DNA of 34,829 nucleotides from IMG/VR virus record IMGVR_UViG_3300032797_000006, positions 1 through 34,829 of that record, one strand, 5' to 3'. The position numbers and the translations under genes are program-made. The stretch comes from a virus. Positions 3,375 through 13,303 of the stretch are shown one piece after another. Position 1 is the stretch's first letter, and every line of letters starts with the position of its first letter. The notes below the pieces were generated by a model. It made no database searches. It was not told the DNA's origin and worked only from the letters and a program-made list of their open reading frames with translations.

Positions 3375-4288
3375 TGGTTGTTAATCAAGTTATAACAGAC
3401 AAATATAGTATATTTAATGGTGATTGTATTGAAGTAGCAGAAAAATTACCAAGCAATTCTATTCATTATTCAATGTCAAGCATTCCTTTTGCCAGCCTTT
3501 ACACCTATTCCAATTCTGAACGTGATTTAGGAAATTGCAAAACTTATGATGAATTTGAAAAACATTTTGCTTATATGATTGAACAATGGCATCGAGTAAC
3601 AATGCCAGGGCGATTGGTTTCAATACATTGCATGAATTTACCAACAAGTAAACAAAATCATGGTTACATTGGATTACAAGATTTTAGAGGTGATATTATT
3701 CGATGGTTTCAAAAAGTTGGTTTTATTTATCATTCGGAAGTTTGTATATGGAAAGATCCTGTTATTGCCATGCAGCGAACTAAAGCACTTGGATTATTGC
3801 ATAAACAAATTAAAAAAGATTCAGCCATGAGTCGCCAAGGTATACCAGATTATTTAATAACATTTAGAAAAGATGGCAACAATCCAGAACCAGTATCACA
3901 TACTAATGAATCATTTCCTGTTGCTATGTGGCAGCGTTATGCTGACCCCGTATGGGTAACTAAAAATGCATTTGAAGATGATGGATTTTACAAGTTATCA
4001 ATGGATATTAATCCATCAGATACATTGCAAAAACAATCTGCTAGGGAACAATGCGATGAACGCCATATATGCCCTTTACAGTTACAAGTAATTGAACGTG
4101 GTATTCAGTTGTGGAGTAATCCAAATGATGTGATTTATGATCCATTTGGGGGAATTGGTAGCACTGGTTATATTGCTTTAAAAATAGGCCGTAGGGCTTT
4201 AATGACTGAATTGAAAGAAAGTTATTATCGGCAGATGGAATTGAATATGGCATCTGTAAAACCAGAAAGCAAAGGATTATTTGATTAA
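3374..4288 (+). CDS. Phage DNA methyltransferase (N4-cytosine/N6-adenine class)
   Basis: This 304-aa protein has the permuted order of beta-class amino-methyltransferases: the catalytic motif IV region comes first ('SSIPFASLYTYS', about 35-46) and the AdoMet-binding motif last ('DPFGGIGSTG', 256-265). It likely methylates phage DNA, as protection against restriction or to mark replicated DNA. I chose ATG 3374, which overlaps the helicase stop (TAATG) and has AAGGAGG upstream; an ATG at 3350 is in frame but without a ribosome binding site. The catalytic motif reads S-I-P-F instead of the usual [DNS]-P-P-[YF], losing the first proline, so activity needs testing. Its position next to the helicase recalls phage replication-methylation cassettes. 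Confidence 0.85.
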   Translation: MVVNQVITDKYSIFNGDCIEVAEKLPSNSIHYSMSSIPFASLYTYSNSERDLGNCKTYDEFEKHFAYMIEQWHRVTMPGRLVSIHCMNLPTSKQNHGYIGLQDFRGDIIRWFQKVGFIYHSEVCIWKDPVIAMQRTKALGLLHKQIKKDSAMSRQGIPDYLITFRKDGNNPEPVSHTNESFPVAMWQRYADPVWVTKNAFEDDGFYKLSMDINPSDTLQKQSAREQCDERHICPLQLQVIERGIQLWSNPNDVIYDPFGGIGSTGYIALKIGRRALMTELKESYYRQMELNMASVKPESKGLFD

Positions 4289-8773: not shown

Positions 8774-9280
8774 ATGGCAAAGCCAGCTAAAACCCCCACA
8801 AACAAATCACAATCTGCCACTGACGAAGAAACACAAGAACAATACAGACAGCGGATAATGGATATAGTATGTGGTTGCATGGCAGAAGGACAGTCATTAA
8901 GGCGCATATGTAAAAGCGTTGAGGGAATACCGAGTCACAGCACAATCATTGGATGGTGTAACGATAGCGAGGAATTAGCTGACCAATACACACGCGCGCG
9001 AAAGCTGATGACTGATTACAGATTTGACGAATATCAGGACGCCGCTGGCGAAATAGTTAAGAAATACATTGCTGATGGTTGGGAACCTAAAGACGCTATA
9101 GCTATAGCACGCCTTGAATGCGATAACATGAAATGGGCATTATCGAAGTTGAACGCTAAGAAGTACGGCGAAAAGATCACTCAGGAAGTCGTGGGAGATA
9201 ATGGTGGCCCTGTCCAGTTCAAAAATGTGGTTGACCTCACCGATGAACAACTGCTTGCTATGATCGCCGCTGGCAAATGA
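8774..9280 (+). CDS. terS: Terminase small subunit
   Basis: This 168-aa protein would recognise phage DNA and load the large terminase for packaging. An N-terminal helix-turn-helix region ('SLRRICKSVEGIPSHSTIIGWC'; quoted part: SLRRICKSVEGIPSHSTI, residues about 43-65) would bind the pac or cos site. A helical oligomerisation region (about 80-130) and a C-terminal tail ('VDLTDEQLLAMIAAG') that typically contacts the large subunit follow. Position directly before terL with a 4-nt overlap supports the call. The first 30 residues are low in complexity and charged. Confidence 0.85.
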   Translation: MAKPAKTPTNKSQSATDEETQEQYRQRIMDIVCGCMAEGQSLRRICKSVEGIPSHSTIIGWCNDSEELADQYTRARKLMTDYRFDEYQDAAGEIVKKYIADGWEPKDAIAIARLECDNMKWALSKLNAKKYGEKITQEVVGDNGGPVQFKNVVDLTDEQLLAMIAAGK

Positions 9281-11697
9281 TAAAGCAATCCGAAATTGCC
9301 GCAGAGCTATACAAGCGGCGTCAAGCCCGTAATTCACTTCAAGATTATATATCCTATTGTAACCACTCCTTTGTTCATTCAAGCTTTTCTACTGCCGTCT
9401 GTAAGGCATTGGATAAGTTTATAGCTGATTGCCTCGCTGGTATTAGGCCAGTGCTGATACTTCAAGCAGCTCCTCAGCATGGCAAGTCAGAGATGGTAAG
9501 CCGTCAATTACCAACATATTTATTAGGAAAATTTCCTGATTGGCGTATTGCCGCTGCTAGTTATTCATCTACGCTTGCGGATTCAATGTCCCTTGATGTT
9601 CGTCGCAATCTTGTATCTCCTGAACATTTAGCTTTGTTTCCCGCACCAGAAGAAAAACGCAAATATTCAATTAATCGAAATGGTGAGTTTAGCTCCCCAA
9701 ATGGCAAAGGTGGATATATAGGTGATGGTGTAGGCGGTGGTTTCACCGGAAAATCAGCAGATTGTTTATGTGCAGGTACGTTGATTGAAACAACAATAGG
9801 GCAAATTTGCATTGAAGAATTGCAATTTGCTTCATCTTCCTGTAAAGTGTTATCATATTCAAACGGGGAGATATTATATGAAAACATCGAGGCTTTCGCA
9901 GTGCGTAAGGGATGCGGGATATGGAGACTCACCACTGAAAGAGGCAGAGTTCTTGAATCTACTGGAGATCATAAAGTTTTCACAAAAAGAGGATATACCG
10001 AAGCGTCTAAACTTGCCAAAGGTGACGTATTGTTGTCCGCAGTGCGGAAAAGAAAAAACATTAAGCGCAGCGGATTACAAAAAACTAAGATCGAAATTTT
10101 GCTCTCTTTCTTGCGCAGGTGCGGCAAAAATGCAAATACGTTATTGCAAAGATTGCAAAACAGAAATTCCGCACGAAAGCTATGGGAATTATTGCATGGA
10201 TTGTTTGAAAATTCGCCGTCATTCTCCAAAATCAAGCAAAGTTTATATTCCAATTCTTGCAATTTGTCCAATGTGTCAAAACCAATTTATTTCGGTAAAT
10301 CGCAGGGGAGGAAAATATTCAATGTATTGCGGGAAGATTTGTGCGGACAGATCACACGCATTGCGGATGATGGGAAAAAACAATCCAAAATGGAAAGATG
10401 GGGCTACTCCGCTTCGGCAACAGCCCCATTCTGCAAAAGATTACAGAACAGTAAGGCCAGGAGTTTTACTTCGGGATGGTTATTCTTGTGTTCTTTGCTC
10501 AAAAAAAGAAATACGTTTGGAAGTCCATCATATAAACGGGAATCCATCAGACAATGCCTCATTAAATTTAGTGACATTATGCGCACCATGTCACAACGAT
10601 GTACACCGTCAAATGGATGGAAAGTTGAAGAGGACAGAGTGGTCAAAGTTGAAAGGATTTGCGATGAAGCCCTTGTTTATGATATTCAAGTCAACAAGTC
10701 GCACAATTTTTTCGCTAACGGAATATTAGTTCATAATTGTTTTATTATTGACGACCCAATAAAAAACTCTCAGGAAGCACTCAGCCCCACTATCAAGGAA
10801 GCGCACTGGAACTGGTATCAGTCAACAAGTAAGACAAGGATGTCTGCTAATTCAGGCCAGATTATTATGGCGACTTCATGGGCAGAGGATGATTTGTCAG
10901 CTAGGATTATGAATTTGCACCGTGGCGATTCAAGGCTAACTGTTTTAAAGTTTCCAGCTATTAATTCACCTGATGAAGCTGGTTACAATCCTGATTTGCC
11001 ATTGGGCGCACTTGTACCTGAATTGCATCCCATTGAACAACTACTTGAATTTAAAGCCGAGCTAAGTGATTATTGGTGGGCGGCAATGTATCAGCAAACA
11101 CCTAAATCTCTTGGCGGTAATATATTTAAAGAATCAAGCATTAATTATTATTTGCCTAAAGATTTACCTGCCAAATTTGATAAAATGATTATTTCATGGG
11201 ACTGCACATTCAAAGACACAGACGGAACGGACTTTGTAGTTGGTCAAGCATGGGGTAAAAAAGGCGCAAATTGTTATCTGCTTGACCAAATTAGAAAAAG
11301 ATTATCATTTACAGATACAGTGTTGAATGTCATACTATTGCGCGACAGATGGAAAGCTACACGCGAAATCTTGATAGAAGATAAAGCAAACGGCCCCGCT
11401 GTTATTGATGTACTTAAAAACCGTGTATCCGGAATTATACCAATAGAACCAGATGGATCTAAAATTGCAAGAGCACATGCTGTTACTTCATTCTGGGAGG
11501 CTGGTAATATTTATTTACCACATCCAGACGTTGCACCATGGATTAATGAATTTGTGTCTGAATTGACAGCATTTCCAGCCGGTGCACATGATGATCAGGT
11601 GGACGCTATGACGCAAGCATTAAGGCGTTTGTATCCATCATTTTCAGGACTTAATATATCACAGGCGGCAATTAACAAGATGTTATGTAGGGGGTAA
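9277..11697 (+). CDS. terL: Terminase large subunit precursor containing an intein
   Basis: The 806-aa precursor is a packaging ATPase-nuclease interrupted by a 325-aa intein (residues 163-487). The Walker A-like 'APQHGKS' is at 65-71. The intein sits after 'GFTGKSAD' and before 'CFIIDDPIKN', so splicing would restore the Walker B strand (IIDD, D492/D493 of the precursor). The nuclease domain follows: 'ISWDCTFKDTDGTDF' (D642), 'ILIEDKANGP' and 'GAHDDQVDA' (H771-D773). Excision leaves a mature protein of about 481 aa, the normal size for this family. The frame is open throughout, including the stretch where another gene is encoded in a different frame. It overlaps terS by 4 nt and ends 1 nt before the portal start. 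Confidence 0.95.
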   Translation: MIKQSEIAAELYKRRQARNSLQDYISYCNHSFVHSSFSTAVCKALDKFIADCLAGIRPVLILQAAPQHGKSEMVSRQLPTYLLGKFPDWRIAAASYSSTLADSMSLDVRRNLVSPEHLALFPAPEEKRKYSINRNGEFSSPNGKGGYIGDGVGGGFTGKSADCLCAGTLIETTIGQICIEELQFASSSCKVLSYSNGEILYENIEAFAVRKGCGIWRLTTERGRVLESTGDHKVFTKRGYTEASKLAKGDVLLSAVRKRKNIKRSGLQKTKIEILLSFLRRCGKNANTLLQRLQNRNSARKLWELLHGLFENSPSFSKIKQSLYSNSCNLSNVSKPIYFGKSQGRKIFNVLREDLCGQITRIADDGKKQSKMERWGYSASATAPFCKRLQNSKARSFTSGWLFLCSLLKKRNTFGSPSYKRESIRQCLIKFSDIMRTMSQRCTPSNGWKVEEDRVVKVERICDEALVYDIQVNKSHNFFANGILVHNCFIIDDPIKNSQEALSPTIKEAHWNWYQSTSKTRMSANSGQIIMATSWAEDDLSARIMNLHRGDSRLTVLKFPAINSPDEAGYNPDLPLGALVPELHPIEQLLEFKAELSDYWWAAMYQQTPKSLGGNIFKESSINYYLPKDLPAKFDKMIISWDCTFKDTDGTDFVVGQAWGKKGANCYLLDQIRKRLSFTDTVLNVILLRDRWKATREILIEDKANGPAVIDVLKNRVSGIIPIEPDGSKIARAHAVTSFWEAGNIYLPHPDVAPWINEFVSELTAFPAGAHDDQVDAMTQALRRLYPSFSGLNISQAAINKMLCRG
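9763..10737 (+). mobile_element. Class 1-type intein in terL (325 aa), hosting an out-of-frame HNH gene
   Basis: The terL frame contains the splicing blocks. Block A is 'CLCAGTLIETTIGQICIEEL', beginning at Cys163. Block B is 'ESTGDHKVFTKRGY', with the TxxH pattern. Block F is 'VYDIQVNKSHNFFANG'. Block G is 'GILVHN', followed by Cys488 as the +1 nucleophile. The catalytic residues (C1, block-B His, penultimate His, terminal Asn, +1 Cys) are all present, so protein splicing is expected. The terL-frame sequence between blocks B and F (about 200 residues) is basic, Ser-rich and unlike any endonuclease; the same DNA in the next frame encodes an HNH endonuclease. Confidence 0.93.
9878..10729 (+). 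CDS. HNH homing endonuclease nested out of frame inside the terL intein
   Basis: This frame is +1 relative to terL and lies wholly within the intein, stopping 8 nt before the intein's end. The 283-aa product has several zinc-finger-like CxxC modules (CCPQC/CSLSC, CKDC/CMDC, CPMC/CGKIC), a 'GKNNPKWKDG' motif common in phage HNH endonucleases, and a typical HNH core: 'VLLRDGYSCVLCSKKE', 'EVHHINGNPSDN' and 'NLVTLCAPCHNDVH'. The start at ATG 9878 is chosen because GGGGAG lies 7 nt upstream; a GTG at 10022, just before the first zinc finger, is an alternative without a ribosome binding site. Its protein features are clear, while the terL frame over the same DNA looks featureless from about 10030 to 10640. 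Confidence 0.87.
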   Translation: MKTSRLSQCVRDAGYGDSPLKEAEFLNLLEIIKFSQKEDIPKRLNLPKVTYCCPQCGKEKTLSAADYKKLRSKFCSLSCAGAAKMQIRYCKDCKTEIPHESYGNYCMDCLKIRRHSPKSSKVYIPILAICPMCQNQFISVNRRGGKYSMYCGKICADRSHALRMMGKNNPKWKDGATPLRQQPHSAKDYRTVRPGVLLRDGYSCVLCSKKEIRLEVHHINGNPSDNASLNLVTLCAPCHNDVHRQMDGKLKRTEWSKLKGFAMKPLFMIFKSTSRTIFSLTEY

Positions 11698-11698
11698 G

Positions 11699-13303
11699 AT
11701 GAGCCAAAAACGATCAGTAATTAATGAGCACAAAAATGCGATAAATGAAAATATTAAGCCAATGTCCAGCGCAAATATGCGCATAGCCGCAAATAAAATG
11801 GCTGTTGACAAGAAATCCACTGCATACGCTTATGAAATAAAGCCGCCCGAATTGGTTGCAGGTATTGCCCCAAAAGATGCTAAAATTCCAGTACTTGCTA
11901 TGGATACAAATCAATATGATTATGCACAAGAATTTTCAGGACAATTCCCAGGTGGTGGATTTCCGGGGTTTCCATATCTTGCCCGACTTGCAACACGCGC
12001 TGAATATAGAGCTTTTGCCAGTGCTATTTCTACTGAATTAACTCGTAAATGGATAGAAATAGTCGGTACAAGTGATGATGCTGATGATGCTACAAAGGAA
12101 AAAATTAAGGGTATAGAAGGCGAAATGAAACGGCTGGATGTGCGTGGTGTGTTTCAAGCCGCCGCAGCACATGATTGCTTTTTTGGTAGAGGGCAGATAT
12201 TTATTTCGATCAATAATGCCGATGACAAAAAACCTTTAATACTTTCTCCAAAAACAATTAAACAAGGTAGCTTAAAAGGAATATCAGCAGTTGAAGCCAT
12301 GTGGACTACTCCATCGGCTTACAATGCCATTAATCCCGCCGCTATTGATTTCTACAAGCCTTCCAGTTGGTTTATGCTAGGTCAAGAAGTTCATGCAAGT
12401 CGATTATTAACCATTGTAACAAGACCATTACCTGATATGCTTAAACCAGCATTTAACTTTGCAGGTATGTCACTATCACAGCTTGCCGAGCCTTACGTTG
12501 AAAACTGGTTAAGGACAAGGCAGAGCGTATCTGATCTGATTAATAACTTTTCGATTACTGCGCTTGCAACTTCCATGGAAGGGATATTATCGGGTGACGA
12601 TGACGGCTCCGGCATTGTCGCAAGGGCTGAACTTTTTAACGCTACTCGAAGCAATAAGGGTTTGATGCTCCTGGACAAAGAGCGAGAAGAGATACAGCAG
12701 ACTAATGTACCGCTTTCCGGTTTGCATGAACTTCAATCACAATCACAGGAACACATGTGTAGTGCTAGTCGTATACCTGCCATAATCCTAACCGGTATAA
12801 GCCCAAGTGGATTAAACGCAAGTAGCGAAGGTGAAATCAGAGTATTTTACGATTGGATAAAGGCACAACAAGAAGCGTTCTGGCGTTCACCTTTAGAGTC
12901 CATAATTAAGGTAATTCAATTATCTTTGTTTGGTGAAATAGACCCTAATATTTCCTTTAAATTTGAATCACTTTATGAAATGACTGAAATAGAAGAATCC
13001 ACAATCCGGATGAATGATGCACAAGCCGCACAGATATATATTGGCAATGGCGTAATCGACCCTTCTGAAGAACGTGAAAGGTTATCTAAAGACCCGCATA
13101 GTGGATATGACAGCCTTGATATGGATGTTGAAATAGTTGCGCCTATTGATGATTTGAATGAATCAGATATTAATGGTGAACTTACAGAAGATAAAAGCAT
13201 TAGCGAAAAACAACACCGAGCAATGGCGGCAGCAGCGGCAGGGCATAGTACAATTGGCATTCCCCAATCTGTTGGCAAAGAATTTATAGAAAAAGATAAA
13301 TAA
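11699..13303 (+). CDS. Portal protein (DUF1073 family)
   Basis: This 534-aa protein would form the dodecameric portal through which DNA is packaged and to which the tail is attached. It matches the DUF1073 portal family in features such as 'FPGFPYLARLATRAEYRAFA' near residue 85, 'SSWFMLGQEVHASRLL' (about 222-237) and 'ASRIPAIILTGISPSGLNAS' (about 360-378), followed by a helical stem/crown region and an Ala-rich C-terminus. It starts 1 nt after the terL stop with GGGGG upstream and ends TAATG, coupled to the next head gene. Confidence 0.88.
   Translation: MSQKRSVINEHKNAINENIKPMSSANMRIAANKMAVDKKSTAYAYEIKPPELVAGIAPKDAKIPVLAMDTNQYDYAQEFSGQFPGGGFPGFPYLARLATRAEYRAFASAISTELTRKWIEIVGTSDDADDATKEKIKGIEGEMKRLDVRGVFQAAAAHDCFFGRGQIFISINNADDKKPLILSPKTIKQGSLKGISAVEAMWTTPSAYNAINPAAIDFYKPSSWFMLGQEVHASRLLTIVTRPLPDMLKPAFNFAGMSLSQLAEPYVENWLRTRQSVSDLINNFSITALATSMEGILSGDDDGSGIVARAELFNATRSNKGLMLLDKEREEIQQTNVPLSGLHELQSQSQEHMCSASRIPAIILTGISPSGLNASSEGEIRVFYDWIKAQQEAFWRSPLESIIKVIQLSLFGEIDPNISFKFESLYEMTEIEESTIRMNDAQAAQIYIGNGVIDPSEERERLSKDPHSGYDSLDMDVEIVAPIDDLNESDINGELTEDKSISEKQHRAMAAAAAGHSTIGIPQSVGKEFIEKDK

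Follow-up and report, generated by a model that had tools for sequence, protein, structure and literature searches.

A TerL intein that probably carries a separately translated homing endonuclease in a nested +1 reading frame

Inteins are normally described with their endonuclease fused in the intein's own reading frame. Full-length inteins of this kind, whether their nuclease is LAGLIDADG or HNH (e.g. TerL1-e of the mycobacteriophage Gaia), have in common with the intein reported here a Hint domain, insertion at a conserved active site and a mobile nuclease, but their nuclease belongs to the intein polypeptide. Gaia TerL1-e itself (locus L191) was considered as a member of the present family and rejected, since its LAGLIDADG-like motifs lie in the terL frame and it offers no second forward open frame of at least 100 aa. 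Group I introns with endonuclease ORFs resemble our case in another way, as self-removing elements with an independently translated nuclease; here, in contrast, removal would take place at the protein level and the host frame is fully open. The nearest published case, the ShiLan domain of a phage methylase, has its HNH out of frame but no intein; its authors identify neither an intein nor an intron there (Arsenault, Gosselin, Gogarten 2025, PMC11855218). The ShiLan domain and the Pacc40 gp60 insertion are, like ours, insertions in a phage gene that keep the host frame open and place an HNH in another frame, but ShiLan has no splicing motifs, whereas our locus has a complete intein in the host frame (PMC11855218). 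The ShiLan HNH starts at a GTG without a Shine-Dalgarno sequence (SD), ours at an ATG with one, and our family, unlike ShiLan, resides in TerL and is spread across very divergent phages. The nucleases themselves are related, as the HNH of one family member, from Gordonia phage Clown, matches those of ShiLan-family methylases at E 8e-7 to 4e-4. A search of the open-access literature (subscription papers and preprints being outside its scope) found no account of an intein with an out-of-frame endonuclease.

The locus is the terL gene of IMG/VR virus record IMGVR_UViG_3300032797_000006, of which positions 1 to 34,829 were analysed and are called the window; its first 25 kb has no close nucleotide relatives among isolated phages. 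Features are collected in Table 1. The terL frame contains the splicing blocks C1 "CLCAGT", block B "TGDHKV", block F "VYDIQVNKSHNFFANG" and block G "GILVHN" followed by Cys. The residues that define an intein, C1, T67, H70, N325 and Cys+1, are present and conserved, the first three being invariant across 28 relatives. The inteins of relatives, whose ends can be placed in nearly all cases, are inserted at the same TerL position just 5' of the Walker-B motif. An intein-free TerL with 57% extein identity to the window, that of Proteus phage RS51pmB, reads ..GKKVDLGIIDDP unbroken (..KKVDLGIIDDP..). A group I or group II intron was ruled out, as an Rfam search of 9200-11800 gave no ribozyme match and no match to any family to E 0.1.

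Table 1. Features of the window terL gene, and TerL6-f type inteins with an endonuclease VII ORF at +2 (positions within each locus)
Feature	Position	Strand	Remarks
terL ORF	9277-11697	+	806 aa
TerL N-extein	9277..9762	+	162 aa, ends ..GKSAD at Walker-B site; phrog_4758 1.7e-42 (terminase large subunit)
Intein, frame 0	9763..10737	+	325 aa; Pfam Intein_splicing; Foldseek mini-intein structures
Hint N-half	9763..10047	+	intein residues 1-95; C1 9763-9765, block B T67/H70 9961-9972
Shine-Dalgarno GGGGAG	9865..9870	+	7 nt 5' of HNH ATG; duplex dG -7.6
+1 HNH ORF (putative homing endonuclease)	9878..10729	+	283 aa + stop; phrog_1271; +1 in 57 IMG/VR relatives
Doubly coding stretch	9878..10047	+	frame 0 codes the Hint N-half, +1 the N-terminal helices of the HNH; both frames ~60% identical to L016
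Zinc-finger CxxC pairs, HNH protein (C53-C155)	10034..10342	+	later pairs invariant in alignment columns, first nearly so
Intein-frame linker	10048..10617	+	residues 96-285; predicted disordered, sequence unconstrained except for openness
HNH catalytic core (C204 to H243: VHHI..N..NLVTLC..CHNDVH)	10487..10606	+	eight His/Asn/Cys residues invariant in 16 members
Hint C-half	10618..10737	+	blocks F and G, His-Asn, then Cys+1
TerL C-extein	10738..11697	+	starts CFIIDDP; phrog_38 2e-89; Pfam Terminase_6C 7.1e-16
Intein with +2 endonuclease VII, L212	2217-2978		Mycobacterium phage Chandler gp6
Intein with +2 endonuclease VII, L213	2217-2978		Phlyer
Intein with +2 endonuclease VII, L214			Affeca
Intein with +2 endonuclease VII, L215			Vivi2
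Intein with +2 endonuclease VII, L216	2160-3059		Vincenzo
Intein with +2 endonuclease VII, L217	787-1560		
Intein with +2 endonuclease VII, L107	4241-5038		
Intein with +2 endonuclease VII, L118	2043-2846		
Intein with +2 endonuclease VII, L141	199-999		

The preliminary description, made from the sequence alone, claimed that an HNH endonuclease gene lies out of frame inside a terL intein with intact splicing blocks. All of its coordinates for this arrangement are confirmed, with the intein scoring 1.7e-17 against Pfam Intein_splicing (64.1 bits, cut-off 35.8) and the HNH protein 4.6e-24 against phrog_1271 (86.5 bits); the Pfam HNH model is marginal on this nuclease, at 18.8 bits below a cut-off of 21.4. 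No stop interrupts the +1 frame between 9800 and 10726; its ATG is at 9878-9880 and its stop at 10727-10729, 8 nt short of the intein end. In a bifunctional intein the endonuclease shares the frame of the Hint halves that flank it; the window intein differs in that its HNH lies at +1. Residues H217, H218, N226, N230, C235, C238, H239 and H243 of the HNH protein are invariant in an alignment of 16 members.

Predicted folds agree with two different products from the same DNA. In an AlphaFold model of the frame-0 intein (28 sequences), residues 1-90 and ~290-325 mostly have pLDDT 92-98, the C-terminal end from ~290 on reaching 94-98, and the linker mostly 37-60, and Foldseek matches the model to the NpuDnaB and Mtu RecA mini-inteins with TMt 0.83-0.86 (e.g. 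4o1r, TMt 0.86). The HNH model (18 sequences) has a mean pLDDT of 76.7; its residues 1-40 reach 73-93 and include, within residues 1-35, two helices encoded by the doubly coding stretch. Foldseek matches of the HNH model in the PDB are weak and are to HNH-containing proteins, e.g. Cap5, DotN and IscB (best E 0.013). The ends of the window intein are thus modeled as a confident Hint domain, its middle as disordered, and the nuclease as a folded protein.

Selection for openness was measured by holding the HNH protein fixed, resampling its synonymous codons, and counting stops in the other frames. About 14 stops would be expected over 198 codons of the intein frame in the window, and none is seen (P(open) ~6e-9), while the third frame has 11 stops vs. 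7.4 expected. The intein frame is open in all 68 sequences so tested, with a median P of 2e-6, and the third frame is open in none. The intein frame is under strong selection against stops, as the preliminary description had suggested from the fact that both frames are open. Substitutions tell which frame constrains the protein sequence. Among the matches listed, 34 inteins form a group like that of Synechococcus phage S-EIV1, and 14 of these, non-redundant and free of gaps, were compared codon by codon. Substitutions peak at intein position 3 in codons 1-36, then at HNH position 3 in almost all blocks from codon 37 to codon 312, with one block of 12 codons even; after codon 312 the intein position 3 peak returns and holds to the end, so that the phase switches at the HNH boundaries. 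Codons 37-96 are the least variable of these inteins, as is expected of a stretch that encodes the HNH N-terminus as well as the Hint N-half. All 34 inteins of the group (e.g. L037, L041, L050, L061, L071, L011) are exactly 1011 nt long despite pairwise identity down to 58%.

A comparison of the window with the relative L016, which aligns without gaps at 65.6% nucleotide identity, gives the same picture. Differences in the core number 118/65/45 by intein phase, and core amino acid identity is 66% in +1 vs. 32% in frame 0; in the N flank it is frame 0 that is better conserved, 63% vs. 42% for +1. Purifying selection acts on the HNH frame. Given this conservation and the phase switch, the middle of the intein is largely free to vary provided it stays open, and the HNH is the conserved part.

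The +1 layout is a family trait. A tblastn search of isolated phages with the window HNH finds matches in the TerL genes of Clown and S-EIV1, each at +1 to the annotated TerL and within a TerL that bears intein blocks; isolate genomes as well as metagenome assemblies thus have the layout, which is no artefact of sequencing. An alignment of the HNHs of the window, Clown and S-EIV1 was then used as the query against IMG/VR, yielding at least 80 loci. In 57 of the 80 loci listed (Clown's record included, the window being extra) a longer ORF surrounds the HNH, which is at +1 to it, and in none of the 57 is the HNH at +2 or in frame; the enclosing ORF is ~800-1380 aa in complete cases. Because collections were sampled by sequence patterns, such frequencies are not population estimates. 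A second search was independent of the HNH, using as its query the last 38 intein residues plus 40 of the C-extein. Among the matches listed it gave at least 59 inteins with an HNH profile match, every one at +1, so that ordinary in-frame HNHs at the Walker-B TerL site, which would have counted against the preliminary description, number 0 of 59; some entries without an HNH, and the lone entry at +2, are second inteins or fragments rather than HNH-less Walker-B inteins. The same search also finds mini-inteins of 135-152 aa without a nuclease at the Walker-B site. In all, at least 101 distinct inteins were read, and at least 88 have a complete +1 HNH. Truncated HNH pieces, still at +1, occur in L124 (3602-4063), L134 (781-1350), L137 (3620-4117) and L138 (3536-4105), and the nested HNH is broken with the intein frame still open in L074 and probably in L024.

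Some further loci fall outside the family. Nine from a search of viral contigs with the window HNH as single protein share short motifs such as EVHHINGN and were rejected when a frame check found no enclosing TerL intein. A scan of bacterial-genome contigs with narrow patterns gave 16 weak matches, none with a recognisable TerL intein. A ThyX-like ORF (L092, 3050-4738) has its HNH-bearing insertion in frame and serves as a conventional relative for comparison. In a gp10-like gene (L086, 3216-4642), an ORF of N-extein plus N-intein stops at 3689 and a second, overlapping ORF comprises HNH, C-intein and C-extein; it is possible that this is a natural split intein divided at the endonuclease, or a frameshift.

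Start signals are concentrated in the nuclease frame. Over intein nt 91-190 of 53 non-redundant members from outside the cyanophages the +1 frame has 62 ATGs, against 9 for frame 0 and 15 for +2, and an ATG with an SD of dG<-5 is present in +1 in 24 of the 53 sequences, in frame 0 in none, and in +2 in one. The SD GGGGAG reported earlier before the ATG at 9878 is borne out and fits this family-wide excess. That ATG, at intein nt 116, also fits the S-EIV1-like group, where HNH-frame selection starts at codon ~37 (nt ~109). About half of the non-cyanophage members, L016 included, lack a strong SD where the HNH probably starts, and in the S-EIV1-like group the region where HNH selection begins has no ATG with an SD, generally only SD-less TTGs, which recur at nt 86 and 116. 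A recurrent stop-NNN-ATG spacing, in which the last +1 stop precedes the first start codon by exactly 6 nt, is present in L016, L027, L100, L106, L114, L142, L172, L125 and L160. The +1 ATG and SD excess, taken with these close upstream stops, makes internal initiation the best reading of how the window's putative nuclease would be made.

Elements of this family have moved between phages. For L019 and L023 identity is 81% in HNH and 65% in Hint but only 32% in exteins (compared over N150+C30, to avoid second inteins within the C-extein), which indicates that the intein and its nested gene moved between divergent terminases. HNH and extein identities are nonetheless correlated (r=0.63), and therefore much of the descent is vertical.

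It is very probable, judging from sequence comparison and structural models, that the window holds a mobile, splicing-competent intein at the Walker-B site of TerL and that its homing HNH is separately translated from the nested +1 frame. Frame 0 would be translated as part of terL; the Hint domain formed from the two intein ends, with the middle as a disordered linker, would excise itself to leave a 481-aa terminase. The +1 frame would act as a separate cistron, with its own SD and its start at ATG 9878, to give a homing endonuclease of 283 aa, with zinc fingers and an HNH, as a free protein. Where a terL allele has no intein, the nuclease would cut it at the insertion point, and repair would copy the entire element. 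For the window element we infer splicing, translation from 9878, cleavage and homing alike, and nuclease dose may be uncoupled from terminase expression.

Other explanations have to be weighed against this one. A programmed +1 ribosomal frameshift out of terL would make a fusion of N-extein, Hint-N and HNH, with no free nuclease. The S-EIV1-like members, which lack an ATG with an SD and whose HNH-frame selection begins within the Hint N-half, would suit such a mechanism. We consider it unlikely nevertheless: a +1 stop 6 nt 5' of the start, as in L016, L027, L106 and L172, leaves little space for an upstream frameshift and argues against one, the in-frame stop that would aid frameshifting is absent, and frameshifting leaves the enrichment of +1 ATGs and SDs unexplained. 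It is quite improbable that the HNH, though produced and maintained by selection, takes no part in homing and instead assists packaging or acts in competition, with the intein as mere housing. HNH proteins do adjoin terminases in many phages, and some of them aid packaging. This nuclease, however, is located in the intein and tracks it, inteins and HNH move together between divergent TerLs, and mini-inteins and remnants without a full HNH occupy the Walker-B site, as a homing cycle predicts.

The HNH could also be the dead remnant of an ordinary intein, wrecked by two compensating indels that arose as mutations or as sequencing errors; the in-frame endonucleases normally described for inteins, and the position of the HNH coding sequence between the Hint halves, would lead one to expect as much. 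We give this next to no credence, as 88 distinct inteins, isolates included, have the identical +1 layout, no in-frame version occurs among the matches listed in the HNH-independent search, and a dead gene would have neither purifying selection on its frame nor invariant catalytic residues. Sequencing error or a recent local double indel in particular is ruled out by the family-wide layout and the conservation of the HNH frame. A single ancient indel event followed by selection is compatible with a separately translated nested nuclease.

Nesting is also seen in inteins with other nucleases and at +2, a recurrence that, like the existence of a whole family, went beyond what the preliminary description could show. 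An endonuclease VII ORF (PF02945, 1e-15 to 1e-18) lies in the +2 frame of the TerL C-motif inteins of L107, L118 and L141 and, by CDS coordinates, of the isolates Chandler, Phlyer, Affeca, Vivi2, Vincenzo and phi1_186018. Single members of this class do not reach significance in the openness test (P 0.06-0.37); endonuclease VII identity exceeds identity of the frame-0 middle in every C-motif pair compared. TerL6-f of Chandler gp6 resembles the window intein in being a TerL intein with a nested out-of-frame nuclease, and differs from it in its C-motif site, in having endonuclease VII and not a zinc-finger HNH, and in the use of +2 rather than +1. The Chandler intein splices experimentally (Kelley et al. 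2016, PMC5050341), and in the parts of that report drawn on here cleavage is tied only to TerL1-b and -c, those with an identifiable nuclease domain; there, the nested nuclease of Chandler apparently went unrecognised. The TerL genes of L019, L107 and L118 (which overlaps L025) have two inteins, one at Walker-B with a +1 HNH and one at the C-motif with a +2 endonuclease VII. A third TerL site, C-terminal, is used in L155 (1123-2349; ..NAKHDD|C..HN|CVDSLAW), with a 304-aa HNH_3/zinc-finger ORF at +2, and a portal intein in L153 (6143-6904) has an HNH_3 at +2 (PF13392 5.7e-18). The window's own portal gene (11699-13303) is uninterrupted at the site corresponding to that of the L153 intein (..LQSQSQEHM|CSASRIPAIIL). 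It seems likely that phage inteins make general use of out-of-frame nesting to carry endonucleases and that this has largely escaped notice, that the arrangement arose several times, with zinc-finger HNH, HNH_3 and endonuclease VII in +1 or +2 at three TerL sites and in portal, and that many "endonuclease-less" inteins are in fact nested dual-coding ones.

Cataloguing looks for endonucleases in the intein's frame, so nested nucleases are missed and active homing elements undercounted; mycobacteriophage TerL6-f looks like one such overlooked case. The isolates Clown, S-EIV1, Chandler, Affeca and Vivi2 allow direct testing. These inteins also form a large natural collection of dual-frame genes, ~600-800 nt long and oppositely constrained, for the study of overlapping genes. 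In the nested layout, the splicing domain and the nuclease need not fold together, and each can evolve or decay separately.
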